A DNA stretch of 60,918 bases from a virus. Below, piece by piece: positions 3,663-59,296 of this stretch (position 1 is the stretch's first letter; each line of letters opens with the position of its first letter). The stretch spans positions 1 to 60,918 of the IMG/VR virus record IMGVR_UViG_3300009180_000046; one strand, written 5' to 3'. Position numbers and translations under genes: made by a program. The notes below the pieces were generated by a model, which searched no databases, was not told where the DNA came from, and saw only the letters and a list, made by a program, of their open reading frames with translations.

Positions 3663-3881
3663 TTATATATTGTTTAAGATGAATGTTTCTATTTGACGGG
3701 CTCTAATATCCATTAGCCTAGTCGCTAAAAAATTATTTAAATATTCCTTTTCCGCGTTTACGTATCTAGGATTTCCCATAAAAAAATTTATTTCCTCGGT
3801 TCCCGTAGTTATATTAACTTTTTTGTTTTGGCTAATCAATACCTTGTATTTCATATTGCCCAGGTTAAATGTTTTTTGCAT
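3663..3881 (-). CDS. Hypothetical protein, 72 aa
   Basis: Mixed charged protein (MQKTFNLGNMKYKVLISQNKK at the start, ending in a helix RQIETFILNNI). No recognised domain. It is spaced by one or two bases from both neighbours, as expected for a coupled operon member. Confidence 0.55.
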   Translation of the reverse strand: MQKTFNLGNMKYKVLISQNKKVNITTGTEEINFFMGNPRYVNAEKEYLNNFLATRLMDIRARQIETFILNNI

Positions 3882-6160: not shown

Positions 6161-6211
6161 GCCCAATTTTATCGTTGTACTTTTTCAAGATGAATTGTAC
6201 TATTTGTAAAG

Positions 6212-6242
6212 TTGTACACAAATGATGTTGAGTTGTGTACAA
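6212..6242. promoter_or_regulatory. Inverted-repeat operator TTGTACACAA-N11-TTGTGTACAA
   Basis: The two 10-bp arms (6212-6221 and 6233-6242) are perfect reverse complements separated by 11 bases. The same sequence recurs at 58799-58820 in front of the primase gene, and single arms lie at 6408-6417 and 58985-58994. This is typical of a dimeric regulator binding site. Confidence 0.65.
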
Positions 6243-6335
6243 AATATTTTAAAGTTTACATTTATAACTTATTGATATATAACTAGTTATAGTTTATATT
6301 ATTCTTTTATGTACAAAATGAACAAAATATATAAG
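6233..6335. repeat. 103-bp direct repeat, copy 1
   Basis: These 103 bases align without gaps to 58811-58913; I count about 12 mismatches. The copy starts at the right operator arm, is AT-rich, and contains AAAGTTTACATTTATAACTT and ATGTACAAAATGAACAAAA. It is noncoding at both places, so the conservation points to a regulatory or origin function. Confidence 0.75.
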
Positions 6336-6407
6336 GAAAATAGAAAAATTTTTTTTTCTTAAAAAATAAAAAATATTATTTACGCAATGGGGGGTAAAGT
6401 TCTACAT

Positions 6408-6417
6408 TTGTACACAA
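6408..6417. promoter_or_regulatory. Third operator half-site overlapping a -7 box
   Basis: TTGTACACAA recurs here and shares three bases with TACATTTG (6403-6410), a match to the Bacteroidota -7 box. A protein bound here would block that promoter. The second module has the equivalent half-site at 58985-58994. Confidence 0.5.
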
Positions 6418-6436
6418 ATATATTTGTGGCATCATA

Positions 6437-6468
6437 TTTGTTTGGTGTTACTATTGTATATAAATTTG
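6437..6468 (+). promoter_or_regulatory. groEL promoter, TTTG-N20-TAAATTTG
   Basis: TTTG (6437-6440) and TAAATTTG (6461-6468) match the Bacteroidota -33/-7 consensus with a 20-base spacer. The groEL ATG follows 18 bases later. It is the best full promoter match I found in the window. Confidence 0.65.
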
Positions 6469-6486: not shown

Positions 6487-8043
6487 ATGATAGTAAAAGA
6501 CATCGTCTTCGGAAGTGAAGGCAGACAGAAATTAATCAAGGGTGTCAATACAATTGCTAATGCAGTTGGCTCAACCCTAGGAGCTCGTGGTCGCACGGTG
6601 CTTATTGAATCGGAGCAACACATTGGTGGCATCACAGTTACCAAGGATGGCGTGACGGTTGCTAAGTCAATTAACTTATTAGACCCGGCTGAGAACCTAG
6701 CGGTAATGATCATGCGAGAAGCGTCTGAGAAGACAGCTAACTCGGCAGGTGATGGGACTACCACATCTATGGTGCTGGCACAAGCCATCATCCATGCTGC
6801 GATGGGAACGCTGACAAAAGAGGACAATACCACACAGGTGCTACGTGACGTGCAGTCTGCTGCTCTAAAGGTGGCCGAGGAGCTGACGGCTATGTCGACA
6901 GAGATTACATCAGACAAGTTGGTGGATGTCGCAACTATATCCGCAAATGGCGACAGCGAGATTGGTAAGATTATAGCTGATGCGTATAATCAAGTTGGTC
7001 TAAGTGGCGTGGTGACAGTTGAGAGTTCGGCAACTGCCGAGACATATGCTGAGGTGATAAGTGGGATGAAGATAGACAGAGGCTTTGCAAGTAAGTACTT
7101 TGTGACAGACCACAAGAAGCAAGAGGCTGTCATGGACAAGCCATACATCTTAGTCACAGACCAACCTGTTACAAACATCAATGACATCTTGCCAATCCTA
7201 GAGTTTATACACCATGGCAGAGGCTCGCTAATTATTATTGGTGAGTTAGATGAGAATGCACTCAACACATTAAATGTGAACAAGATAAAGAGTGGTCTAA
7301 AAGTATGCACTATTATTCCTCCATCATTTGGCTATAAGCGTCATCAGATTATGCAGGACATAGCAATAGCTACTGGGGCTAAGTACTTCTCGGAGCAGAC
7401 TGGTGACAATTTGCTAATGGCAACAATTGACGACTGCGGGCGTGCAAGTAAGGTGGTGAGCTCTAGGTTCAATACTATTATATTCGACGCAGAGGGTGCA
7501 GGTGATGAGCGTGTGCAAGAGCTACACGAGCAGTTAGATGTGGAGACGCAGCCGACCGAGAAAGAATTCTTAAAAGAACGCATCGCTAATCTAGGTGGGG
7601 GCGTGGGTGTCATTAAGGTGGGTGCTAACTCTGACATTGAGCAGAAGGAGAAGAAGGACCGGGTGGATGATGCGGTGTGTGCAGTACGTGCAGCACTAGA
7701 AGAAGGCATCCTTCCAGGTGGAGGGGTGGCTCTAAAGGACATCGCAGCGAGCCTTGAGGTGGAGAACAAAGGCACCGAGATATTACAAATGGCTATGCTC
7801 TCACCTATGATCAAGATACTATCTAATGCAGGCATAGATGTGGATGGGTCAGACTTTGATGAGGGCAGACAATTATCTCAAGAAGGCATAGGGGTGAACG
7901 TGGCTACAGGGGCATACTGCCACATGATGAGCGTTGGCATCATTGACCCAACTAAGGTGACTAAAGAAGCTCTTAAGAATGCGGTGTCAGTAGCAACGAC
8001 ACTTCTATCAACTGAGACGGTCATTACCAACATTAGAGCATAG
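6487..8043 (+). CDS. groEL: Chaperonin GroEL (HSP60), 518 aa
   Basis: ATP-dependent protein-folding chaperonin. Full-length group I architecture is visible: the N-terminal equatorial domain with T-L-G-A-R-G-R-T (30-37), KDGVTVAKSI (53-62) and the nucleotide loop GDGTTTS (88-94, Asp89); a complete apical domain (about 185-370); and the C-terminal equatorial domain with EEGILPGGGVAL near residue 405. It is about 30 residues shorter than E. coli GroEL, mainly because the Gly-Gly-Met tail is missing (it ends TNIRA). A co-chaperonin gene lies 0.7 kb downstream on the same strand. Phage GroELs are uncommon and are thought to fold capsid proteins. It is under a Bacteroidota-type promoter beside a repeated operator. 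Family call certain. Confidence 0.95.
   Translation: MIVKDIVFGSEGRQKLIKGVNTIANAVGSTLGARGRTVLIESEQHIGGITVTKDGVTVAKSINLLDPAENLAVMIMREASEKTANSAGDGTTTSMVLAQAIIHAAMGTLTKEDNTTQVLRDVQSAALKVAEELTAMSTEITSDKLVDVATISANGDSEIGKIIADAYNQVGLSGVVTVESSATAETYAEVISGMKIDRGFASKYFVTDHKKQEAVMDKPYILVTDQPVTNINDILPILEFIHHGRGSLIIIGELDENALNTLNVNKIKSGLKVCTIIPPSFGYKRHQIMQDIAIATGAKYFSEQTGDNLLMATIDDCGRASKVVSSRFNTIIFDAEGAGDERVQELHEQLDVETQPTEKEFLKERIANLGGGVGVIKVGANSDIEQKEKKDRVDDAVCAVRAALEEGILPGGGVALKDIAASLEVENKGTEILQMAMLSPMIKILSNAGIDVDGSDFDEGRQLSQEGIGVNVATGAYCHMMSVGIIDPTKVTKEALKNAVSVATTLLSTETVITNIRA
8028..8042. repeat. 15-bp direct repeat, copy 1 (end of groEL)
   Basis: CAACATTAGAGCATA covers the last codons and the first bases of the groEL stop. 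The identical 15 bases recur at 8269-8283, just after the 70-aa gene. The pair brackets that gene and looks like an insertion or recombination scar. Confidence 0.7.
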
Positions 8044-8283: not shown

Positions 8284-8327
8284 ATATTGCACTTAGTGGT
8301 AGAGAAAGCCGACAACTATATCATTAG

Positions 8328-8363
8328 GCATATAAAAGTATAATATATTGCACTTTTATATGC
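8328..8363. repeat. 12-bp perfect inverted repeat
   Basis: GCATATAAAAGT (8328-8339) and ACTTTTATATGC (8352-8363) are perfect reverse complements around 12 bases. No U-run follows, so it is not an obvious terminator. It is the first of several palindromes in the groEL-groES gap. Confidence 0.65.
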
Positions 8364-8385
8364 TATTTGGTATAAAATGTAAACT

Positions 8386-9000: not shown

Positions 9001-9124
9001 AGTCAGGTGGCGGAACGATTGCTCTAAAAGTTTAAAAGCCGATGGAGTTGTTTTGGTTAGACGCAATAAATGTAATAAGTCTATAAAGCATTTATTCTTA
9101 CAGGTTCGAATCCTGTCCTGACTA
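9001..9124 (+). tRNA. Oversized tRNA-like sequence (possibly degenerate tRNA-Leu)
   Basis: AGTCAGG (9001-9007) pairs perfectly with CCTGACT (9117-9123). A canonical T-arm, ACAGG-TTCGAAT-CCTGT (9100-9116), leads directly into the acceptor stem. The 5' side has GTGGCGGAA and further on TTGGTTAGACGC, the two halves of a tRNA-Leu-type D-arm. They are separated by about 36 extra bases, so GCG (9010-9012) and CGC (9062-9064) enclose 49 bases. The anticodon arm would be AATAAATG/CATTTATT (9065-9072/9089-9096) with a 16-base loop. An alternative stem (9018-9027 with 9057-9067) competes with this fold. No CCA is encoded. The total of about 124 bases is far above normal. It may be a decayed tRNA, a tRNA with insertions, or a tRNA-mimicking RNA; I cannot name an anticodon. 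Confidence 0.5.
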
Positions 9125-9628
9125 AAAATCTTTATTAAGTCTATCAATGACCCTGTCATATTGTCGTTTGGCAAAGTGATGGGGTTTATTGTTAATAGGT
9201 TTGATGTCAGACAGATTAGGAATCTCTCTTTCTCCCTGCAACATCTCATAAACTTGCTTCATTAGCGACTTGGCCTTAAAGGATAGCTCAAAAATAGCCC
9301 GCTGACCAGGCTTAGGCTTTCTAAAGTGTATAATTAAGCCCTTATTCATCAAATCTCTCTTGCGATCCTGCGTAAATCCAAAGATTTGGGCATACTGGTC
9401 GAACTGATGGTTATCAAAAATGTGTTCAGAGTAGAGATAGCATAGCATCTCAAAGTCTTCTAGGCTCAGTCCATGCTTATGACGCACCCATGCACGCACT
9501 ACTTTAATGTATTTAAGAAAGTCTTTGTCAACCTCTGGTCGCACGGCAACTATTGGTTTTTTCTTGTATACACGCACTTTGATAGCCTTAGACTTTATAG
9601 CCCTTGGCTTCATATATGTTTTGATCAT
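9122..9628 (-). CDS. Winged-helix-like regulator, 168 aa
   Basis: A very basic N-terminus (KPRAIKSKAIKVRVYKKK) is followed by a MarR-like winged-helix pattern: LSLEDFEMLCYLYSEHIFD, FDQYAQIFGFTQDRKRDLMNKGLI and a wing-like strand region FRKPKPGQRAIFELSFKAK. It is the only gene on this strand between the left operon and the glycosyltransferase. It is convergent with the groES unit, with its stop touching the tRNA-like 3' end. It may be the phage regulator that binds the TTGTACACAA sites; that is a guess. An internal ATG at 9613 is an alternative start. Confidence 0.5.
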   Translation of the reverse strand: MIKTYMKPRAIKSKAIKVRVYKKKPIVAVRPEVDKDFLKYIKVVRAWVRHKHGLSLEDFEMLCYLYSEHIFDNHQFDQYAQIFGFTQDRKRDLMNKGLIIHFRKPKPGQRAIFELSFKAKSLMKQVYEMLQGEREIPNLSDIKPINNKPHHFAKRQYDRVIDRLNKDF

Positions 9629-14843: not shown

Positions 14844-17800
14844 ATGGCCCGGATATCAACTTATAGCATTGACACCTATGTAACAGGACTTGATCGTGTC
14901 ATAGGCTCAGACTGGAACACAGAATATAAGACAACTAAGAATTTCACTACCAATGATATTGCCGATTATTTTAATCGGGTAGGTATTATTGATACAGGTA
15001 GTTTCAACTGGACATACAGAATGTATGCCCCGACAGAATCTCAGCCTGCGAAGACGTTTGAATTAGTTGACCATCCATACGATACAGTAGATGTTATCGC
15101 TCTTGCGGGAACCATCAAGGTTTCTTTCTTAACCCTTGCTAATACAGAGCCGGGTGTATTCATTGAAGAAACGTGGTTAGATAAAATTATTCTTATTAAT
15201 CGTCCAGGATTCCCTAGCGAATACGGACTATATAAAGTAACTGCTGTCGTTCATTCAGGCGACTACTATTTCTTAGACTTAGACTTCATTGGCGGTAACT
15301 CAGGAATTATTTACGAAGATGAGTCTGTTTCATTTGGGTTATTCTCAGGCGTAAGTGGCACAAGTGGTACGACTGGTACATCAGGTACAAGTGGTACGAC
15401 GGGTACATCAGGCTCAAGCGGAGTAAACGGCACAAGTGGCTCATCAGGCACAACAGGAACTAGTGGAACCGCAGGTACATCTGGTACTACGGGTACATCT
15501 GGCACAACAGGCACATCAGGCTCTTCGGGCACAGGTGGAACCTCAGGAACTTCGGGAACGAATGGTTCAGGTGGTACATCAGGTACACGTGGTACGTCAG
15601 GCACATCAGGTATTGATGGAATTGATGGAACAGATGGAACTTCGGGAACAGATGGTACTGGTGGAACCTCAGGAACCAATGGTTCAGCTGGTACTTCAGG
15701 TACAGATGGTACAGGAGGTACATCAGGTATAGATGGAACAAGTGGTTCGTCAGGCACATCAGGTATTGATGGCACAAGCGGTGTTGACGGAACAAGCGGT
15801 ACTACAGGTACTTCAGGTACTGCAGGTACTGACGGAACAGGTGGCACTAGTGGAACTTCGGGTGTTAGTGGTACAAGTGGTATTGATGGTACATCAGGTA
15901 CAACAGGTACTAGCGGTTCATCAGGCACAGACGGTACAGGTGGAACTTCAGGTACTAATGGTACGGGTGGAACATCGGGAGTTTCAGGAACAGCAGGTAC
16001 ATCAGGAACAACAGGCACTAGTGGCTCAGGAGGTACTTCTGGAACAGGAGGTACATCGGGGCAAAATGGTGCATCTAATAACTTATTTCTATATAGAGCA
16101 CGCACAACAATTCAAACAGGTTATCCTAGTGATGGACATTTATTGTGGAACAATGCTACACAAATAAATTCAACTCAAATTAATATCAGTCATCTTACTG
16201 ATAATGGAATTGATATTGATATCTTTTTGGGATTGATTCAAGATTCACAACAGATTACAATACAGGATCAAAATCTTTCGGATAATTATCAAACTTGGAA
16301 TGTTAATGGTACGCCAACAGAAGTTTTAGGAGTTGATAATTATTGGATAGTACCTGTTACTTTAATATCATCAGCTGGTACAGGTACAACAAACTTTGCC
16401 AACAACCATCCATTATTCTTAGCTATTGTTTCCCAATCAGGAACCTCAGGCGTAAATGGTACTTCAGGAACCAGTGGTACTACAGGTACTTCAGGTACAG
16501 GTGGTACATCGGGTATTAATGGAACATCGGGTTCATCAGGAATTAATGGCACTAGTGGCATAAGTGGCACGTCAGGAGTTAGTGGAACCTCAGGTATAAA
16601 TGGAACTAGTGGTATTGATGGTACTAGTGGCGTAAGCGGTACAAGTGGCGTTAGTGGAACCGCAGGTACTTCAGGTGTAAATGGAACATCAGGAGTATCA
16701 GGTACCTCAGGAATTAACGGAACTAGTGGAATTAATGGTACGAGTGGCGTTAGCGGCACCTCAGGAACCGGAGGTACTAGTGGTACAGGTGGAACAAGTG
16801 GAACAACTCCTGACCCATCACTATATGTGTTGAAGTCAGGTAGTACAATGACAGGTGGTTTAGTTATTAATCCTGCAAACTCAGCAGTAATTGGACTTGA
16901 TGCTGCATCTGATACATTTAGATTGCGTTCAGATAGCACACAACCTTTTGCTCGTCAATTAACTACTACTATGGGTAGTGGTACAACTGTTAAGATTCAA
17001 GCGGCAGGATATACTGGAACGTATGTTACTGACATAGGATTGTACACATCTTCTAACTCGTCAGTAAATAGCACACCTAATATTTACTTAACAGGTGGCG
17101 ATAACCGTGTAGGCATTAATAACGTAACCCCTGCTTATACACTAGATGTAACAGGTACTGCAGGAGTATCAGGTCAGTTAACATTAGGCTCTACTATTAC
17201 TAATGGCACATATACTTATACATTGCCGGGTGCTACGGGTACACTTGCTTTAGTAGGTAGTTTAGGCTCTTATGTTCCTTATACAGGTGCAACTACAGAT
17301 GTAGTTTTAGGAACTAATAACTTGAAATCTAAGAGCGTTTATGTAGAAGGAGATGGAGCCTTTACAAGTGGTGCTTTATTTTTAAAGCAATACGCTTCAG
17401 GTGCTACAAACGTTACAGGTTACAATATAATTACAACGCAAACAAGTGGATTCTTATTTTCTGCTTCGGTAGCAGCTAGCTTTAAAAACTTTATTTTAGA
17501 TGCAAGCTCGCTTACAGATGTAACACAAAGAACATATACGCTTCCTAATGCTTCAGGCACTCTTGCCTTAACATCTAGTTTAGCTTCTTACGTTCCCTAC
17601 ACAGGTGCAACGGGAGCGGTAAACTTAGGTGCTTTTGATTTAACGGTAAATAGCATAAGAGTTGGTAGAGGAGCAGGAAGTATAGCGGATAACATAGCAG
17701 TAGGGGCTTCTGCTCTTAATTCTAATACAACAGGAACTTCAAATACGGCAGTAGGAAATCTTTCCTTATTTACTAATACAACGGGAGGAGGTAATTCTTC

Positions 17801-20294
17801 ATTTGGAGTTTTTTCTCTTTTATTTAATTTAACAGGAAGCAATAACACGGCAATTGGAGGGTCTACTCTTTATTCTAATACAACAGGAGGAGCTAATGTT
17901 GCAATAGGCTTAAATGCTCTTTATTCTAATACAACAGGAGGTGCTAACACAGCAAATGGTGTCCAAGCTCTTTATGCTAATACATCAGGTATTTATAATA
18001 CTGCAATAGGTAGTACTGCTCTTTATGCTAATACAACAGCAAACTATAATACTGCAGTAGGAAATAATGCCCTTTTAGCTAATACAACAGGAGAAAACAA
18101 TACCGCACTAGGAAATAATGCTGGGCAAAGTATAACAACAGGTAGTAACAATGTTATTATTGGTGGTTATGCTGGAACTGCAGCTATGGCTAATAACATA
18201 GTTTTATCAGATGGGGCGGGAAATATAAAATATCAATGGAACGGAACTACTAATACGCTTTTTGGAACTACCACACTTACGGGAGCTTTAAGCGGTACAA
18301 GTGCTACGTTTTCTAGTAATACTGGAGTAATAGTAGGGGCAAATAGTAGGGCATTTATTCGCCAAACGGTTGGAGGAGATGCTGAAATGGGAGCAGCAAC
18401 AGGAGGATTATTAAGTATATTTAGTAACAATTCTAGTGTTTTATCTTTTGCAGTAGGAGGAGCCGCCACGTTTTCGAGTAGTGTTACGGCAACTTATGCT
18501 AGTTTATCTCAAGCGGGTTCAGCAACGACAATAACACAGAATGCAAGATTTTCGAATACAACAACATCAACCGCTAATGGTTCAGGCGTAGGATTTGATT
18601 TTGCATTAACAGATGCGACAGGAGCAGGAAAACAAACAGGTCAAATAGCAAGTGTTTGGTCAGACAATAGTGCTAATGATGTTGCTGATTTAGCTTTTTA
18701 TACAAGACCGACAGGAGCAGGTATTTCTGAAAAATTAAGAATTACAGGAAATGGTAATGTAGGAATAAATATGACTTCGCCAAGTGCTAAAATGCAAATT
18801 TTAAGCACTTCAGCAGGATCTGCAACCGTAGGATTGTTTTTAAATAATTTCAGCACTACAATAAATACAGAAATTAGATTAGCTTTTGCAGCAAATACAA
18901 ATGATGATATAGCATCTAATAGATATTCCTACATTTCTGCTTTAAATACTAGTGGAAGCAATGGACAAGCTTTATTATTTGCAACTAATGAAGCGGGTGC
19001 TTCTGCGGTAGAACGTATGCGGATTGCTAGTGGAGGTACAGTAAGTATTGGAAATTCATCTCCACAAAATTTATTTAACGCAAACGTAAGAGGATTAGTA
19101 TTTGGTAATTATTCTTCTTTATCAAGTAATAGTTCTTCAGGATGGACAAGTTTAGCTAACAATGCAGCTCAAACAATAGGTTCATCTGAAACAAGTGGAT
19201 GGTCATATCAAAATACTGATGCAGCAGCAAAACTTTCATTAACAAACGGTGGATTTGCATTTCAAGTATCAGGTTCAGGAACAGCAGGAACCGCAATTTC
19301 GTGGACAACTGCTATGACAATTATGAATGCGGCTAATGCAGGAAAGGTAGGCATCGGAACAGCTACGCCAAGCTCATTATTAACAGTAGCAGGCACAACA
19401 GATTTAGCTTATACAAATGGTACTACTATTTTTAGAATTGATAGAAGTGGTTCAGTAGTTAGATTACAAAATTATAGTTCAGGTTCTGCGGCTAATATAT
19501 CTTTAGCTTACGATGGGGGCAACGTAGGCATCGGAACGACTTCGCCTGTATTTAAACTAGATGTTCGAGATACATCTACTAGTAATGTTGTCGTTTCAGG
19601 ATTTGTAAATACTTCTACTGCATCAAATACGACTAAATCAACAACCATTTCTTTATTGCTTACAGACACTGCTGGAACTGCTAAAGATGTAGCTTATTTA
19701 AGAGCATTTACTGATGGGGTCAACGTTTTGGCGGGCGGGCTAGCTTTTGATACTAGACGTACTGATACTACACCTGTTGAAGCGATGCGGATTACTAGCG
19801 GGGGTTCTTTATTAATTGGTCAATCAGCATCTAGTCTAACTGATAACGGTTGGAATTTGGCTAATAGTGGAGGAGGACATACTGCTTTTCAAATTACAAA
19901 TAATGAAGCATTTATATTTAATAATAGAACAGGTGGTACAACTTATCAAATTGATTTTAGAACTCTACAAGTAGAAAGAGGAAATATAACTGTTAGCGAT
20001 GTAGCGGTAGCTTATAACACTGTTTCGGATTACAGATTAAAAGAGGATTTAAAACCTATTAAAGGACTTGAAATTGTTAACAAAATTAATGTTTACGATT
20101 ATAAATGGAAATCCGAAAATACTCGAATGGATGGTGTTTTAGCTCACGAGCTACAAGAAATCCTTCCTTATGCGGTTCAAGGAATTAAAGATGGAGAAAA
20201 AATGCAAAGCGTAGACTATTCCAAAATCGTTCCCGTAATGGTGCAAGCAATTAAGGAGCTAACAGAAAAAGTAAAAACTTTAGAAAACAAATAA
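14844..20294 (+). CDS. Giant collagen-like tail fibre with C-terminal intramolecular chaperone, 1816 aa
   Basis: Receptor-binding fibre. In order: an N-terminal virion-anchor region (1-168); a Gly-X-Y stretch dominated by GTS/GTT/GSS triplets (about 170-408); a small globular domain (about 410-530); a second Gly-X-Y stretch (about 532-655); a long beta-rich shaft with repeated V-P-Y-T-G-A-T segments. Next come trimeric-adhesin-like head repeats (about 950-1115, N-T-A-x-G and L-x-x-N-T-T-G units), and finally an S74-type endosialidase chaperone domain (about 1728-1816) with SDYRLKEDLKPI, DGVLAHELQE and a helical end. The S74 domain trimerises the fibre and normally cleaves itself off. The Gly-X-Y parts lack proline but are rich in Thr/Ser, possible O-glycosylation sites, and a glycosyltransferase gene lies just downstream. 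Confidence 0.85.
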   Translation: MARISTYSIDTYVTGLDRVIGSDWNTEYKTTKNFTTNDIADYFNRVGIIDTGSFNWTYRMYAPTESQPAKTFELVDHPYDTVDVIALAGTIKVSFLTLANTEPGVFIEETWLDKIILINRPGFPSEYGLYKVTAVVHSGDYYFLDLDFIGGNSGIIYEDESVSFGLFSGVSGTSGTTGTSGTSGTTGTSGSSGVNGTSGSSGTTGTSGTAGTSGTTGTSGTTGTSGSSGTGGTSGTSGTNGSGGTSGTRGTSGTSGIDGIDGTDGTSGTDGTGGTSGTNGSAGTSGTDGTGGTSGIDGTSGSSGTSGIDGTSGVDGTSGTTGTSGTAGTDGTGGTSGTSGVSGTSGIDGTSGTTGTSGSSGTDGTGGTSGTNGTGGTSGVSGTAGTSGTTGTSGSGGTSGTGGTSGQNGASNNLFLYRARTTIQTGYPSDGHLLWNNATQINSTQINISHLTDNGIDIDIFLGLIQDSQQITIQDQNLSDNYQTWNVNGTPTEVLGVDNYWIVPVTLISSAGTGTTNFANNHPLFLAIVSQSGTSGVNGTSGTSGTTGTSGTGGTSGINGTSGSSGINGTSGISGTSGVSGTSGINGTSGIDGTSGVSGTSGVSGTAGTSGVNGTSGVSGTSGINGTSGINGTSGVSGTSGTGGTSGTGGTSGTTPDPSLYVLKSGSTMTGGLVINPANSAVIGLDAASDTFRLRSDSTQPFARQLTTTMGSGTTVKIQAAGYTGTYVTDIGLYTSSNSSVNSTPNIYLTGGDNRVGINNVTPAYTLDVTGTAGVSGQLTLGSTITNGTYTYTLPGATGTLALVGSLGSYVPYTGATTDVVLGTNNLKSKSVYVEGDGAFTSGALFLKQYASGATNVTGYNIITTQTSGFLFSASVAASFKNFILDASSLTDVTQRTYTLPNASGTLALTSSLASYVPYTGATGAVNLGAFDLTVNSIRVGRGAGSIADNIAVGASALNSNTTGTSNTAVGNLSLFTNTTGGGNSSFGVFSLLFNLTGSNNTAIGGSTLYSNTTGGANVAIGLNALYSNTTGGANTANGVQALYANTSGIYNTAIGSTALYANTTANYNTAVGNNALLANTTGENNTALGNNAGQSITTGSNNVIIGGYAGTAAMANNIVLSDGAGNIKYQWNGTTNTLFGTTTLTGALSGTSATFSSNTGVIVGANSRAFIRQTVGGDAEMGAATGGLLSIFSNNSSVLSFAVGGAATFSSSVTATYASLSQAGSATTITQNARFSNTTTSTANGSGVGFDFALTDATGAGKQTGQIASVWSDNSANDVADLAFYTRPTGAGISEKLRITGNGNVGINMTSPSAKMQILSTSAGSATVGLFLNNFSTTINTEIRLAFAANTNDDIASNRYSYISALNTSGSNGQALLFATNEAGASAVERMRIASGGTVSIGNSSPQNLFNANVRGLVFGNYSSLSSNSSSGWTSLANNAAQTIGSSETSGWSYQNTDAAAKLSLTNGGFAFQVSGSGTAGTAISWTTAMTIMNAANAGKVGIGTATPSSLLTVAGTTDLAYTNGTTIFRIDRSGSVVRLQNYSSGSAANISLAYDGGNVGIGTTSPVFKLDVRDTSTSNVVVSGFVNTSTASNTTKSTTISLLLTDTAGTAKDVAYLRAFTDGVNVLAGGLAFDTRRTDTTPVEAMRITSGGSLLIGQSASSLTDNGWNLANSGGGHTAFQITNNEAFIFNNRTGGTTYQIDFRTLQVERGNITVSDVAVAYNTVSDYRLKEDLKPIKGLEIVNKINVYDYKWKSENTRMDGVLAHELQEILPYAVQGIKDGEKMQSVDYSKIVPVMVQAIKELTEKVKTLENK
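15350..16068 (+). repeat. Coding repeat 1: collagen-like Gly-X-Y (GTS-rich)
   Basis: About 240 residues of uninterrupted Gly-X-Y triplets, X mostly Thr/Ser/Ile/Val/Asp/Asn and Y mostly Ser/Thr/Gly. At DNA level 9-bp and 18-bp units (variants of GGTACATCA, GGCACAAGT) repeat imperfectly, so length variation by recombination or slippage is expected. Confidence 0.9.
16437..16808 (+). repeat. Coding repeat 2: collagen-like Gly-X-Y
   Basis: A second run of about 124 residues with units such as GTSGIN, GTSGVS and GTGG. It is separated from the first run by a globular insert of about 120 residues, so the fibre has two collagen-like rods. Confidence 0.9.
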
Positions 20295-20695: not shown

Positions 20696-20965
20696 ATGAA
20701 ACTAAACTTTAATTTTAATCTAGTCGATTTAGACGGCAAGGAAATTGACAATGCTAATGCAGGTAAGTTAGTAGCTAACTCATTAGTGCAACAATCTAAG
20801 GGCGATGCTCTTAAGTTTTGGGAATGGGCTTTAGCTCTTAATAAAGGAGAGGTTCTTGACCTTGACTCATCAGACCAAGAGACTTTGAAAAACTTTGTTA
20901 AGGACAGTGAGAACTTTGCTATCATTGCTAAGGCTCAGTTATTACAATTGTTCAAGAAGGACTAG
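20696..20965 (+). CDS. Hypothetical protein, 89 aa
   Basis: ATG at 20696, just after the promoter. Sequence MKLNFNFNLVDLDGKEIDNA, then KLVANSLVQQSKGDALKFWEWALAL and a helical tail ending LLQLFKKD. The pattern L-x-D-L-D-G-K-x-I-x-x-A...L-A-x-x-L is common in small phage proteins of unknown role. It ends overlapping the convergent glycosyltransferase gene by 24 bases. Confidence 0.65.
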   Translation: MKLNFNFNLVDLDGKEIDNANAGKLVANSLVQQSKGDALKFWEWALALNKGEVLDLDSSDQETLKNFVKDSENFAIIAKAQLLQLFKKD

Positions 20966-22969
20966 TCTATCTATTACATCTTCAGCAACTATACTCCTCT
21001 GACACTCAAAATGTCGGGGAGTATTCTTAAAAATGGGGCACCAGTCAAAGTCCCCGGCATCGAATTTAAAGTTGGAGTTATTCCAACATCCATTGCAAAC
21101 ATTCTTATTTGTGATGCGTATGCAATCAAACTCGTGATCCTCTTCGGCAAAGTTATTAATCATCACTACTTGTTTACCTAGAGCCCAAGCCAACCAGCTC
21201 ACTCCACTGCCTAATCCAATGAAGAATTCACTATGGTGGATAATAGCCATCGTCTTTTGGATGTCAGTATTAATAATCTGCTCACAGTTATCGAAAGGAT
21301 TATGCTCAAGTGATACGTTAATTACTTTGTAGCCTTTCTCGTGCAAATAGTTTATCACCCCTTGCCATCCTTCTTTTGTCCAGAACTTACACCCAGCTGT
21401 AGAGTTAGTAGCTATCGTAACATATTTACCATAGTTATTGATGCCAGCATCATACTTTAACTTAGGCTTAATCTCCTCAAAGTCAAGTCCAAGAATATTA
21501 GTTGCTGCTTCTTGCAATTTAATTGTATTTGGCAACACCGGCTCTTTGTTAGTATCATAGAACCAACCTATGTTATACTGAGCATAAATATTAGGAACAA
21601 CTGTGCCAGGTTCCACTAACTCTATCTCAGGAATGTCCAGTATTTTATTTAAAAAAGTGGACAGAATTACTTTGCACTTATGCTTCTTTTGAAACTCTAA
21701 AGCATATGGTGCCCAGGCAATTGTGTCACCTAGTGACTTACTAGCAAGAGCAATGTACACACGCTTGCCTTCTAGGTCAAGTATATTGTGGTGTATGAGC
21801 TCATCGTTCATAAAAACTTTACTCTCCCACTTAGTGTAGTATTGCCTGTTTAGTTTAATCCAACTGTTTGATCCGATAGTATTCTCATATACCAAGTTGT
21901 CGCCATCAAAGTATTGCACTTTAAAGTCTGCTTTTAGCCCTGACTTAATTTCTAGGTATGGCTGACCAACAAAGTGTTGGATGATGGTTACATCTTGTTC
22001 TTGTTTGTCGAGTGTCATTACTTTGTTGTAGAAGTTAATTTGTTTCTCAGTGAATACCTCTGTGGTGTTATCTGTAGGTACATTGTAATTACATTGCACC
22101 GAGTTTAGGTCGGTGTCAATAGGTTGAATATACTTATCAAACATCGATCCATATTGTGGCAGGTTGCGAGCAATAATTGGCTTGCCAAAAGATATCGCCT
22201 CACGTAATACCAATGGATTGCACTCCCATGTAGAGTTAAACATAAATATGTCTGCCCATCTCATATACATTTCTACATTACCTTTCTCTCCCCATATCGT
22301 CACGTTGGAAGGAATGTCTTTCATTAAAGGTTCCCAGTAGTGTTTAAAGTTTATAGCTTGGTTGCCAATAAAGTGAAAGTTCATCTCAGGATACTTTTTT
22401 GCTATCTCAAGACCTTCGGCTTGATTCTTCCCTGGAGTCCATAATCCTACATTGACTACGTTTATTTTACTTGTGTCAAAAGGATTTAGATATAGGTCAT
22501 TTCTTTTATCATCAATTGGGAACTCAATCACCTCTTTGTAAGATGGCGATGAAGCAAATGTTTCTAAGTGATATGGAGTGCAGAAATAGTAGGCATCAGG
22601 GTGAAATATCTTTTCTTTGTCGTGGTTAAATGACACGTCATGGCACGTCTCTACAATCCGGTAGCTTCTGTCCTCACGATATAATTCAGATATCATATCA
22701 CGATTAAACCTTTCAGCAGGCTCGTGGATATGCACAATGTCAGGATTAAACTTAGTTATTATATTAAATAGCTCCATCTTGTCCTCATGTAGAGTATGGA
22801 ATGGAACAAGACTCTTAATGACATTACGTTGTACGACATAGTCTAAGCTATGGCATTGATACTCTACTACCTCAATGTCAAATGTCTTGTAAAGAGTTTG
22901 AATACTCTTCAAAACAAATGCCGGCATCCCGCCAGTCGAACAGTGAGCAATTAAGTATAGTATCTTCAT
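20942..22969 (-). CDS. Two-domain glycosyltransferase: GT4 plus TibC/Aah-like O-heptosyltransferase, 675 aa
   Basis: The N-terminal half (1 to about 300) is a GT4-type retaining glycosyltransferase: MKILYLIAHCSTGGMP, DIVHIHEP near 80, NVVNVGLWTPGKNQ (about 170) and NPLVLREAISFGKPII (about 255). A beta-rich linker (about 325-390, YLEIKSGLKADFKVQYFDGD) resembles the strand-loop-strand of autotransporter heptosyltransferases. The C-terminal part (about 395-675) is GT9-like: SLGDTIAWAPYALEFQKKHK, then GLGSGVSWLAWALGKQVVMI and a cysteine finger Cys625-x2-Cys628-x15-Cys644-x11-Cys656. From memory this matches the iron-binding finger of TibC. TibC-type enzymes transfer heptose to Ser of repeat adhesins. 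It is encoded against the structural genes, convergent with the fibre unit, so it is probably an accessory gene that modifies the phage fibre or the host surface. Confidence 0.8.
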   Translation of the reverse strand: MKILYLIAHCSTGGMPAFVLKSIQTLYKTFDIEVVEYQCHSLDYVVQRNVIKSLVPFHTLHEDKMELFNIITKFNPDIVHIHEPAERFNRDMISELYREDRSYRIVETCHDVSFNHDKEKIFHPDAYYFCTPYHLETFASSPSYKEVIEFPIDDKRNDLYLNPFDTSKINVVNVGLWTPGKNQAEGLEIAKKYPEMNFHFIGNQAINFKHYWEPLMKDIPSNVTIWGEKGNVEMYMRWADIFMFNSTWECNPLVLREAISFGKPIIARNLPQYGSMFDKYIQPIDTDLNSVQCNYNVPTDNTTEVFTEKQINFYNKVMTLDKQEQDVTIIQHFVGQPYLEIKSGLKADFKVQYFDGDNLVYENTIGSNSWIKLNRQYYTKWESKVFMNDELIHHNILDLEGKRVYIALASKSLGDTIAWAPYALEFQKKHKCKVILSTFLNKILDIPEIELVEPGTVVPNIYAQYNIGWFYDTNKEPVLPNTIKLQEAATNILGLDFEEIKPKLKYDAGINNYGKYVTIATNSTAGCKFWTKEGWQGVINYLHEKGYKVINVSLEHNPFDNCEQIINTDIQKTMAIIHHSEFFIGLGSGVSWLAWALGKQVVMINNFAEEDHEFDCIRITNKNVCNGCWNNSNFKFDAGDFDWCPIFKNTPRHFECQRSIVAEDVIDRLVLLEQL

Positions 22970-56138: not shown

Positions 56139-56399
56139 TTAAAAAAAGTCTGTGTAAATTAAAATAGGTGAGTTCGGCATGTATGGAACAGCTCTTGCAG
56201 TATTATATTCATAATAGTCAATAGCCTCTTCATCACTCATGCCTTCTTTCATTAAGCAGTCAACAATATCGTTGATAGAGTAAACTAATCTAATTGGTTC
56301 TGAGTAAGCGTCTACTCCAATAATTGCATCATCAAATCCATCAATGATGGTAAATGTTTCATCTGGGAAGTTGTTAAGTATCTCCTCTAATTTGCTCAT
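56139..56399 (-). CDS. Hypothetical protein, 86 aa
   Basis: Contains FTIIDGFDDAIIGVDAYSEPIRLVYSI, EEAIDYYEYNTARAVPYM and a terminal PILIYTDFF. I recall this layout from many phage genomes; no function is known to me. Its start overlaps the primase stop by 4 bases. Confidence 0.65.
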   Translation of the reverse strand: MSKLEEILNNFPDETFTIIDGFDDAIIGVDAYSEPIRLVYSINDIVDCLMKEGMSDEEAIDYYEYNTARAVPYMPNSPILIYTDFF

Positions 56400-58774
56400 A
56401 ATAGTTCTAATTGTTTATCTTCTTTAAATGGGAACACCATCCACTTGCCTGCACCATCACGCCCCTCTACTGGGTTGCTACCGGTCATGTGCAATGAATA
56501 GGTACGTAGCCACGAATTAAATCGTTGCTTAGATAACATACGGAACATGCCGTTATTATCCGCTATAAACTTATCAAACACATCATCAGGTCTGAATCGC
56601 TGATTCATTGGTATGAATGCCGGTCCGAACTCTTGTGCCCACTCAGCAAACTCAGCGTTAGTCTCTGCCCTGAACTTACGTTCTTTAAGGTTCACAAAGT
56701 TACATTTGACTAGACCGGTGTTAAGATAAGATTGTAGCACCTTGATCATATAATTGTCGAACGCACACCAATCATCTTGACTCCAATCGTTGAACAATAG
56801 TCTACCAAACTCATCCTGAGGTGTGAAGTCTTTAGAATAAAACTGCTTGAACTCCATCTCCCACTTACGCCTCTCAAATGAATTACCCTTACCTTGTATG
56901 GCGTAATTGGTTGTGATGACCACCTTGGGTGACTTGTGGAATGGAATCTTAATAGCATCTTTATTCTTGCGTTCAACCGTGATACCCTCGGTAACCACCG
57001 AGAATAATCGCTCGAAGTCAAAGTTTTTCTTCACGTCATCGAACACCAACACCTGCGTGTCTGTGCTCACTAACTGATAAGCAAATGACTTGTCAAATGA
57101 GAATGACTTACCATCAATGGTGACTGCCTTCTTCATTCGGCTGATGCCGTTCATGAACAAACCCTTACCAGTACCACCCTCAGGGTTCTCTGATATCACC
57201 TCATCATTAATGATTACCGCAGGGCAATAGCCACCATTCTTAAATGCATGAAGAATGAAGCCAATGGTCGACTCAATTGATGCCACACGTTTGTCATCAG
57301 CACCGCCAATGTTACGTATGAAAGTCTTGTAGTCGCATTCATCCGCAGGACAGAATACAAAGTCACGTTGGATAACTTGGTCTGACCACACGTAGCCACC
57401 CAAGTCCTCGTAGTTTAGTAGCACCGCCTGATCCTTGGTCACCTTGACTACGCCATTCTTAAAGTATAGGTACGCCTCATCCTTTGTGTCCTCTACAAAG
57501 TATATACTAACCGAGTCAAGCATAGACAAGAAGTCTTCTCTAAAGAATCTAGTCTTGTCAGCAAAGTAATTGTACACACTGAGGTCTTGGAAGTTATCAA
57601 GGATGTGGTTTAACACAAAGTCCTTGATGTCATCCTCTGTACACATCTCAATTAGATTCTGATTGATGCGTACAAATATGAAACCCTTGTTACCCTCAGG
57701 CACGTACTTACGATACCCATGGTTCTCTAAGAATGTCTTGAGTTCGTAGTGAATTAATGTCACCACACCCTTGTCACTCTTAGTCCAGAATGTATTCTTA
57801 CTTTGTTCCTCCTCGATTCGAGTTAGTACTGAATCAATAGTTCCGTCCTCTACACCGGAGGCTTTAAGTTGAGAACGGATGTCCTTTTTTGGCACACCAC
57901 GACTAAGTTGATTCTTTGCAAAGTCAACACGAGATGTATCCTCAAAGTACTTAGTAGCATACTTGTCAGTATGGCGATACGCTGAGTCAATAATGGACTG
58001 AATTTCTTTGGTCGTAAAGTCCTCAGATGCAAATGCCATCATGCGATACATCGCCTCAGACTTAGACACGCCATACTCATTGAACGCCATAACTAACACG
58101 AACAGATTATTGTTGCGTGCTCCTGACACAAAGCCAAACTTATTGTCCCACCATTTAGCCAAACGATTAATGATTTCGTTCTCATCATCGATAGGTATGG
58201 TTGGTCGCATGTCCTTGGTCACGTGATCAATCTCCGCATCATCTATCTTAGTCCACTCAATAGAGTTGACATTGACAAAGATGGTCGGATCGTATGACTC
58301 ATAGCACACACGTGACACATTCTTGGATGTCTTATCAAACTGCTCGCAGTTATAGTGAGCCTCTAGTGCATTAAAGAATGCCTTGTGTTTGTTAGTGTCC
58401 TTTGGTATCTTAACCAACACCTTCAAGCCGTTACCTGATGGTGAGATGAACACCGAGAACGTATAGGGGTCATTAGCCAATTCATCTTTCTTTGCTAGTA
58501 TCTCATCATTGGATGGGAAGTTATCAAAGTCTAAACATATCAGACCGCTATGCTCCATAAGAGCCGAGTCTTCACGTTTAGAGAACGTGCCTGAGAAACA
58601 TATCGCAGGCAACTCTTGCTTGAGCTTGTTACGAAGCTCCTTGTCTTTCTCCAATCTAATCTTGCGGACTATGTCTTTGGACTTACCCTCCTTAACTCTG
58701 GATAGTATAGCCAAGACATCCCGATAGAATGGGACAGACGTCTCTTTTATATTTGAGAATATAGTTACTTGCAC
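56396..58774 (-). CDS. Primase-helicase with VirE/BT4734-like N-terminus, 792 aa
   Basis: N-terminal part (1 to about 190) has BT4734/VirE-N primase-polymerase features: CFSGTF, the metal-binding LDFDN, SPSGNGLKVLV and a later RVCYESYDP. A linker with primase-C-terminal-like helices leads to a superfamily 3 helicase: Walker A NPEGGTGKGLF (about 530-540), VLVFDDVKK (Walker B) and VVITTNYAIQGKGNSFERR (sensor and arginine finger). The start codon is GTG at 58772-58774. It follows the 103-bp repeat copy 2, so its expression may be set by that element. It unwinds and primes phage DNA. Strong family call. Confidence 0.87.
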   Translation of the reverse strand: MQVTIFSNIKETSVPFYRDVLAILSRVKEGKSKDIVRKIRLEKDKELRNKLKQELPAICFSGTFSKREDSALMEHSGLICLDFDNFPSNDEILAKKDELANDPYTFSVFISPSGNGLKVLVKIPKDTNKHKAFFNALEAHYNCEQFDKTSKNVSRVCYESYDPTIFVNVNSIEWTKIDDAEIDHVTKDMRPTIPIDDENEIINRLAKWWDNKFGFVSGARNNNLFVLVMAFNEYGVSKSEAMYRMMAFASEDFTTKEIQSIIDSAYRHTDKYATKYFEDTSRVDFAKNQLSRGVPKKDIRSQLKASGVEDGTIDSVLTRIEEEQSKNTFWTKSDKGVVTLIHYELKTFLENHGYRKYVPEGNKGFIFVRINQNLIEMCTEDDIKDFVLNHILDNFQDLSVYNYFADKTRFFREDFLSMLDSVSIYFVEDTKDEAYLYFKNGVVKVTKDQAVLLNYEDLGGYVWSDQVIQRDFVFCPADECDYKTFIRNIGGADDKRVASIESTIGFILHAFKNGGYCPAVIINDEVISENPEGGTGKGLFMNGISRMKKAVTIDGKSFSFDKSFAYQLVSTDTQVLVFDDVKKNFDFERLFSVVTEGITVERKNKDAIKIPFHKSPKVVITTNYAIQGKGNSFERRKWEMEFKQFYSKDFTPQDEFGRLLFNDWSQDDWCAFDNYMIKVLQSYLNTGLVKCNFVNLKERKFRAETNAEFAEWAQEFGPAFIPMNQRFRPDDVFDKFIADNNGMFRMLSKQRFNSWLRTYSLHMTGSNPVEGRDGAGKWMVFPFKEDKQLELL

Positions 58775-58798
58775 GTCGTTTTAAGTTAAAGTTTACAT

Positions 58799-58820
58799 TT
58801 GTACACGATTTTGTGTACAA
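58799..58820. promoter_or_regulatory. Operator copy 2, TTGTACAC-N6-GTGTACAA
   Basis: Perfect 8-bp arms (58799-58806 and 58813-58820) with a shorter spacer than copy 1. It lies 25 bases upstream of the primase GTG on the leftward template. Confidence 0.6.
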
Positions 58821-58913
58821 AATGTTTTAAAGTTTACATTTATAACTTACTAGTATATAGTTAGTTATATATTATATTCTTTATTTATGTACAAAGTGAA
58901 CAAAATATATAAG
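58811..58913. repeat. 103-bp direct repeat, copy 2
   Basis: Aligns without gaps to 6233-6335. It is noncoding here too, filling most of the 222-base gap between ssb and the primase gene. A half operator TTGTACACAA follows at 58985-58994, repeating the order seen in copy 1. Confidence 0.75.
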
Positions 58914-58984
58914 AAAAGTGAAAAAAATAATTTACCTGTAAAAGAAAAATATATATTCACGCAAGTCCCACATATTTTGTTCAT

Positions 58985-58994
58985 TTGTACACAA
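58985..58994. promoter_or_regulatory. Half-site TTGTACACAA (module 2)
   Basis: Exact copy of the arm at 6408-6417, in the same orientation and at about the same distance from the main operator. It is 2 bases upstream of the ssb stop. Confidence 0.55.
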
Positions 58995-58996
58995 GA

Positions 58997-59296
58997 TTAG
59001 AATGGAAGATCAGTCTCTTCCACTGTTAGACTAATAGCAGGAGCCGGTGCTTTCTTAGCAGTTGACCCGCCTTCAGATGTCCAAGCAATCTTGCCATTGC
59101 CCAAGTAGTTCTTCTTGGTCTTAGCCTCACGCTCTTCCTTCGACTGAGACTCGTAGATACCTGCTTGGTTTCCGTACTGGTCTATCTCATCATTTATAGA
59201 GATTGTAATGTTAAGGTAATTACCCTTCTCTCCTTTAACTAATTTGTCCTTAGAGATTTTTGATACATCAATAGATGCTGAAATTAATTGTGCCAT
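58997..59296 (-). CDS. ssb: Single-stranded DNA-binding protein, 99 aa
   Basis: Short SSB-like protein: MAQLISASIDVSKISKDKLV, GNYLNITISINDEIDQYGNQ, YLGNGKIAWT, then a flexible Ala/Pro stretch and the diagnostic acidic tip EETDLPF. The tip resembles the D-D-D-L-P-F end used by bacterial SSBs to recruit partner proteins. OB-fold details cannot be checked by eye, but tail and context (exonuclease and annealing protein in the same operon) agree. Confidence 0.75.
   Translation of the reverse strand: MAQLISASIDVSKISKDKLVKGEKGNYLNITISINDEIDQYGNQAGIYESQSKEEREAKTKKNYLGNGKIAWTSEGGSTAKKAPAPAISLTVEETDLPF

Follow-up and report, generated by a model that had tools for sequence, protein, structure and literature searches.

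Paired AT-Rich Elements Beside groEL and a Primase-Helicase Gene Are Most Likely Landing Sites for a Phage Replication Initiator

Introduction

Few replication origins of environmental tailed phages have been located from sequence. A viral genome of 60,918 nucleotides (IMG/VR record IMGVR_UViG_3300009180_000046, referred to at its full length as the window) raises this question in a specific form, as the same noncoding module stands before groEL and, at a distant place, before a primase gene. Two readings of this module had been put forward in the original prediction, namely a regulon that ties chaperonin production to replication, and a pair of origins. Our analysis indicates that the two copies are most likely paired landing sites for a replication initiator, probably origins, rather than a chaperonin switch; with an origin pair, no groEL regulon is needed to explain the shared module. 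The result is a specific candidate origin pair, together with a candidate initiator, for a large and mostly uncultivated phage family, and it provides about two dozen natural iteron variants usable to decode how D5-type helicases read DNA. Nearly all of the sequences compared are metagenomic contigs, and family contigs L251-L262 have been binned into MAGs labelled Aliivibrio, Pseudomonadales, Gammaproteobacteria and even Pacearchaeota, labels that probably reflect binning contamination.

One Noncoding Element Present Twice

The window carries one AT-rich noncoding element in two copies (Table 1). Their best gapless block (6233-6333 against 58811-58911) is 101 bp long and 88% identical, in good agreement with the 103-bp gapless element of about 88% identity that had been predicted at 6212-6417 and 58799-58994, where both copies were found. 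Longer alignments give 82% identity, either over 144 bp ungapped or over 155 bp with blastn (E ~1e-38), and a self-search of the window's own record revealed no third copy. The half-sites expected further on are also present, as outer sites at 6408-6417 and 58985-58994. Both stretches are intergenic, as had been claimed: no open reading frame of at least 45 amino acids overlaps copy 1, and copy 2 occupies the gap between a leftward gene ending at 58997 and the start of the likewise leftward primase gene at 58774. The placement before a rightward groEL and a leftward primase gene thus stands, but the orientations differ, copy 1 pointing along groEL and copy 2 pointing rightward, antisense to primase.

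Table 1. Coordinates of the two copies, their putative sites and the neighbouring genes in the window
Feature	Position	Strand	Remarks
Copy 1, groEL side, probable replication origin	6201..6430	+	Sequence comparison; holds AT-richest 100 bp
Inverted TTGTACACAA pair, putative 5' initiator-binding sites	6212..6242	.	
TAACTTATTGATA, exact match to E. coli IHF consensus YAANNNNTTGATW	6265..6277	+	
AT-richest 100 bp of the window, candidate unwinding region	6281..6380	.	88% AT
Tandem iteron-like TGTACAAAA TGAACAAAA	6310..6329	+	
Outer TTGTACACAA site of copy 1	6408..6417	+	
TAAATTTG, Bacteroidetes-type -7 box (TAnnTTTG) of groEL	6461..6468	+	Beyond the element
groEL (Cpn60)	6487..8043	+	Neighbour of copy 1
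MarR-like winged-helix protein, rival trans-acting factor	9122..9628	-	
Primase-helicase, probable initiator (predicted)	56396..58774	-	BT4734-like_N, PriCT_1, DUF5906/SF3
Copy 2, primase side, antisense to primase	58775..58999	+	AT rank just below copy 1
Inverted pair of TTGTACAC(A/G)A sites	58799..58820	.	
TAACTTACTAGTA, degenerate IHF-like core	58843..58855	+	3 mismatches
Tandem iteron-like TGTACAAAG TGAACAAAATA	58888..58907	+	
Outer TTGTACACAA site of copy 2	58985..58994	+	Adjoins stop codon of 58997-59296

By itself TTGTACACAA is not a rare word, with 14 matches in the window at one mismatch or fewer against 7.8 expected. The TGTACA words are nevertheless clustered, 8 of the 27 genome occurrences falling inside the 462 bp of the two copies (binomial p ~2e-11). 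When all 100-bp windows of the genome (n=6082) are ranked by AT content, copy 1 holds the richest and copy 2 the seventh. The exact IHF consensus was found in 15 of 15 groEL-side copies of the close group and in many distant ones, this consensus being that of E. coli, carried over to the present hosts by assumption; on the primase side the core is exact in many relatives, yet degenerate in the window's own copy 2. In the window lineage the TGTACA words, although clustered, mix inverted and tandem arrangements and are less regular than clean 11-bp direct iterons.

As a rule, the iterons of plasmids are spaced in phase with the helix, and the corresponding origins carry AT-rich DNA and a site for a nucleoid-associated protein (PMC5043065). 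By analogy, the features of the element match the iteron origins of plasmids and lambda (PMC5043065). Judging by how the genes are arranged in relatives, the phage genome is circularly permuted, and the two copies would then lie ~8.3 kb apart across the window ends. The GC-skew minimum lies near copy 1, where the direction of transcription also switches; as it is confounded by gene strand, we left it unused as origin evidence. Searching named phages with the short element by blastn returned just weak AT-rich matches.

Elsewhere in the window, an Rfam tRNA match of 35.8 bits (9001-9124, plus strand), with ~50 extra nucleotides and absent from the ARAGORN output, may correspond to a tRNA with an insertion or to a decayed tRNA. 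Collagen-like repeats of 9-nt units (15348-16700) lie within an open reading frame of 1816 amino acids (14844-20294), and midway through the rightward gene block a gene with a glycosyltransferase domain (20942-22969, minus strand) runs the other way.

Maintenance of Both Copies in Close Relatives

A primase search of IMG/VR provided at least 80 loci, of which ~20 are close (82-98% identity over the primase). Both copies, with the same sites and the same relative orientation, are present in 13 of 13 close contigs spanning both loci (G003, G005, G006 and G008-G017; G004 repeats G003), whereas the contigs of G018, G002 and G007 are cut and leave one copy visible. One copy always lies upstream of groEL and the other between the primase gene and an ssb-like gene, for which no Pfam family match was obtained. 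Copies at the same site are up to 89% alike between genomes, as compared with 82% between the two copies of the window. Orthologous copies are therefore closer than paralogous ones, which indicates that the duplication is old and that both copies have been maintained. The pair proposed from a single genome thus recurs in its close relatives; the absence of a copy, named beforehand as evidence against it, was seen in none of these 13 contigs, but only in some deeper lineages, where the primase-side copy is missing.

groEL and the Element

Does the element control groEL? In 37 of 41 genomes a promoter-like TAnnTTTG box of its own precedes the chaperonin gene, and in about nine relatives other open reading frames part the element from groEL by 0.4-1.1 kb. 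The intervening reading frames and the separate promoter box make a direct groEL regulon unlikely. An operator of groEL was rejected on the same grounds, as the distinct box lies downstream of the element and the reading frames between them in several relatives are unrelated; an operator shared by groEL and primase also fits poorly, since the element does not adjoin both promoters in relatives. The element and groEL seem to be associated by position, as the rightward arm begins with groEL. The regulon half of the original prediction consequently finds little support, the opposite orientations of the copies relative to their genes also speaking against it. Beyond the gene that follows groEL, an AT-rich gap contains two abutting inverted arms of 29 nt (76%; 8317-8374).

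Iteron Words in Distant Relatives

More distant phages, whose primases are 52-59% identical, carry an analogous pair with a different repeated word. The complete genome MW202828.1 (primase 57% and groEL 47% identical) has no TGTACA element, and a blind repeat search of it detected a two-copy 90-nt repeat (76%) exactly before groEL and primase, 10.9 kb apart. Its iteron is TATGTCGAT in place of TGTACAAA, with the core TAACTTATTGATTATTA unchanged. In other lineages whose groEL and primase genes lie on a single record, the iteron words include ATGTTGACTTT, GTGCTTACTTT, ATGTCGATTTT, GTGTCGACTT and others. On the groEL side, distant genomes typically show three iterons 11 bp apart, an IHF-consensus-like dyad and one or two more iterons. 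AT-rich DNA and outer inverted iterons follow, and between these and groEL itself stands a promoter box of the Bacteroidetes TAnnTTTG type. Where the core of a distant genome can be recognised, autocorrelation of these groEL-side iterons mostly gives an 11-bp peak, corresponding to helical spacing. A similar, full set is found on the primase side in clade A, whereas in clade B that side has a shorter, inverted and partial iteron set immediately ahead of the primase start. G051, G053, G054 and G058 keep the groEL-side copy but lack the one at primase, which is also absent in a few others. In G037/G038, G031 and G048 the element at groEL is out of place or difficult to identify, so that it may not be universal.

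A separate observation on MW202828.1 (positions 40000-60850, L001) concerns ~14-16 copies of the palindrome GTGTCGTTAACGACAC between early genes (at 3739, 4258, 4535, 4802, 5138, 5590, 5880, 6516, 7647, 8923, 9868, 10734, 11762, 15148 and others in L001), several of them just before start codons. From its distribution this palindrome looks like a distributed operator or processing site.

When the groEL-side element was used as query against its own genome, the primase-upstream region was the best match outside the query in G032, G046, G029, G013, G009, G012 and MW20. In G011 the element's inverted match to itself ranked higher, as did, in G050, segments from the ends of the record and from around position 1270; G051 and G054 have no second copy. 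Each primase side was also compared with the groEL side of its own genome and with those of other genomes. In 7 of 27 distant genomes, or 5 once near-duplicates are left out, the own pair scored above all non-near cross-pairs, about one such case being expected by chance. Adding G029 brings the count to 8 of 27 genomes in 6 lineages (MW20, G027/G057, G040, G042/G044, G032 and G029), and in several further distant genomes the own pair comes near the top. An automatic 8-mer shared-word test was noisy, the word picker often taking the wrong core, and was set aside. The iteron word thus differs between lineages and tends to change together in both copies of one genome. A word common to both copies suggests one trans-acting DNA-binding protein, with drifting specificity, for both sites; shared ancestry of neighbouring sequence adds to the likeness of the copies within a genome.

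These patterns bear on the idea that the element encodes, in both copies, a conserved noncoding RNA or represents the promoter of one. Its length of ~100-200 bp and its conservation would suit such an RNA, but the conservation sits in short repeated DNA words that are swapped wholesale between lineages, the second copy is inverted in some of them, and Rfam gives no match at the element, for want of which a structured RNA was rejected. We regard this explanation as highly improbable.

Candidate Initiator

The gene beside copy 2 encodes a primase-helicase with the Walker A motif GGTGKG. Its sequence gave no match when searched against the PDB; the best solved-structure matches of its predicted model are D5-type primase-helicases, including SaPI5 Rep (7ola) and AsfvPrimPol. 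A C-terminal winged helix is predicted at approximately residues 696-781, the model ending in helices and a beta hairpin, with a full-length pTM of only 0.51. The staphylococcal proteins SaPI Rep and SCCmec Cch2 are known to bind iterons via their C-terminal domains (PMC7581432). Three primase columns separate the iteron classes, all of them within the C-terminal domain. One separating column in primase is uniform and convergent, as opposed to none in the controls, among which groEL has two non-uniform separating columns and the MarR-like protein has none.

Across the initial set of 24 lineages, the identity of primase residue 753 (Tyr or Asn) tracks an iteron base (C or T), 24 of 24 by majority (site counts 41:1 versus 8:92, with a p value that ignores phylogeny and a column picked on the same lineages). 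Among held-out lineages, L033-L035, the L061 group and L251 agree with this rule, but L059, L252, L257 and L262 disagree. These four contradict the idea that residue 753 reads one base of the iteron, which is kept as a lead only. L086, L088 and L089 have Gly at this position and a new iteron, TATGTTGGTTTT, directly before primase. The split among held-out lineages leaves the primase a likely, not a demonstrated, initiator. Judged from its domains and its predicted fold, the D5/SF3 primase-helicase is likely to be the initiator.

Could a transcription regulator, for instance the MarR-like protein, read the sites instead, as operators that co-regulate the groEL and primase operons? The palindrome-like character of TTGTACACAA, the MarR-like prediction and the occurrence of homologues in nearly all groEL loci examined are in its favor. 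However, the MarR fold match is weak, with nothing below E 1e-3, the iterons of distant relatives are 11-bp direct repeats and no palindromes, and none of this protein's columns separates the two iteron classes, for which primase has three. The separate groEL box, the intervening reading frames and the opposite orientation of the element relative to the two genes also count against such operators, which we consider unlikely.

Paired Initiator Sites and Their Division of Labour

Taken together, we hold it probable that the phage's own initiator, most likely the primase-helicase, binds both copies as paired sites, of which the groEL-side one is most likely an origin and the other, at primase, a second origin or a control site. 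The pair of origins is the better supported of the two readings first proposed, given the iteron-like repeats, the IHF-consensus core, the AT-richest DNA, the primase-helicase neighbour and the co-changing words; the irregular sites of the window lineage, the degenerate IHF core of copy 2 and the lineages devoid of the primase-side copy count against it. At both copies the initiator would bind iterons that flank an IHF-type bend site and an AT-rich unwinding region. The primase-helicase would do so through its C-terminal winged helix, and would then open the AT-rich DNA and load itself. The groEL-side copy would serve as replication origin, while the primase-side copy, beside the initiator gene, would be a second origin or an initiator-bound control site. 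We take the groEL-side copy as the origin proper since some lineages keep it and lose the primase-side one.

RepE of plasmid F binds at the repE operator and at incC, and acts there as a repressor (PMC13028717), and by analogy a control site operated by the initiator is an equally possible role for the primase-side copy. A more restricted version of the paired-site explanation, rather than an alternative opposed to it, has a single origin on the groEL side and, on the primase side, an autoregulatory or copy-control site at which the initiator represses its own gene; we see this version as a serious possibility, short of probable. It agrees with the layout of the F plasmid, which has iterons at the origin and at incC and inverted repeats at the operator of the initiator (PMC13028717), with the short, inverted and partial clade B copy directly before the primase start, and with the retention of the groEL-side copy only in G051/G053/G054/G058. 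On the other hand, the primase-side copy of the window group and clade A is full (5' iterons, dyad, 3' iterons and AT-rich DNA), it lies ~300-460 bp from primase in G003, G006 and G017, and inspection by eye revealed no TAnnTTTG promoter in the gap that precedes primase in the window. A wider proposal extends the paired origins, ~8-13 kb apart, to the whole family of groEL-carrying Bacteroidetes-type podoviruses, the origins evolving with the DNA-binding domain of the D5-type primase-helicase and the chaperonin standing at the origin because GroEL helps activate the initiator; as a whole, we think it quite unlikely to hold.

Comparison with Known Systems

Phage P4 has two cis elements kilobases apart, ori and crr, that are used by its fused alpha primase-helicase, an arrangement like the one proposed here. 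In Bacillus phage SPP1 one initiator, G38P, acts at two origins, oriL and oriR, 12 kb apart (PMC3485210). The present phages resemble SPP1 in having two distant sites (~8-13 kb apart), one inferred phage initiator and one site at a replication gene. They differ from it in that SPP1 has a separate origin-binding protein, helicase loader and helicase, whereas here the candidate is a fused primase-helicase and the putative origins are known from sequence; the leftward genes examined encode this fused protein rather than an initiator, loader and helicase of the G38P/G39P/G40P type.

Iteron plasmids such as F (oriS, repE operator and incC; PMC13028717; PMC5043065) share with the paired element phased iterons, AT-rich DNA and a distant second cluster, and their IHF/HU site has a candidate counterpart in the IHF-like core. 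Unlike plasmid F, the element resides in a phage genome with structural genes, and no RepE-like protein was found among the proteins scanned. In SaPI Rep and SCCmec Cch2, which are D5/SF3 self-loading helicases, the single origin lies just downstream of the helicase gene (PMC7581432), whereas here the elements stand upstream of the primase start and, ~8-13 kb off, upstream of groEL. The likeness to these proteins (PMC7581432) lies in the same helicase class, as judged by fold, in the short iterons beside the initiator gene and in a C-terminal domain for binding double-stranded DNA, which in the present primase-helicase is predicted to be a winged helix.
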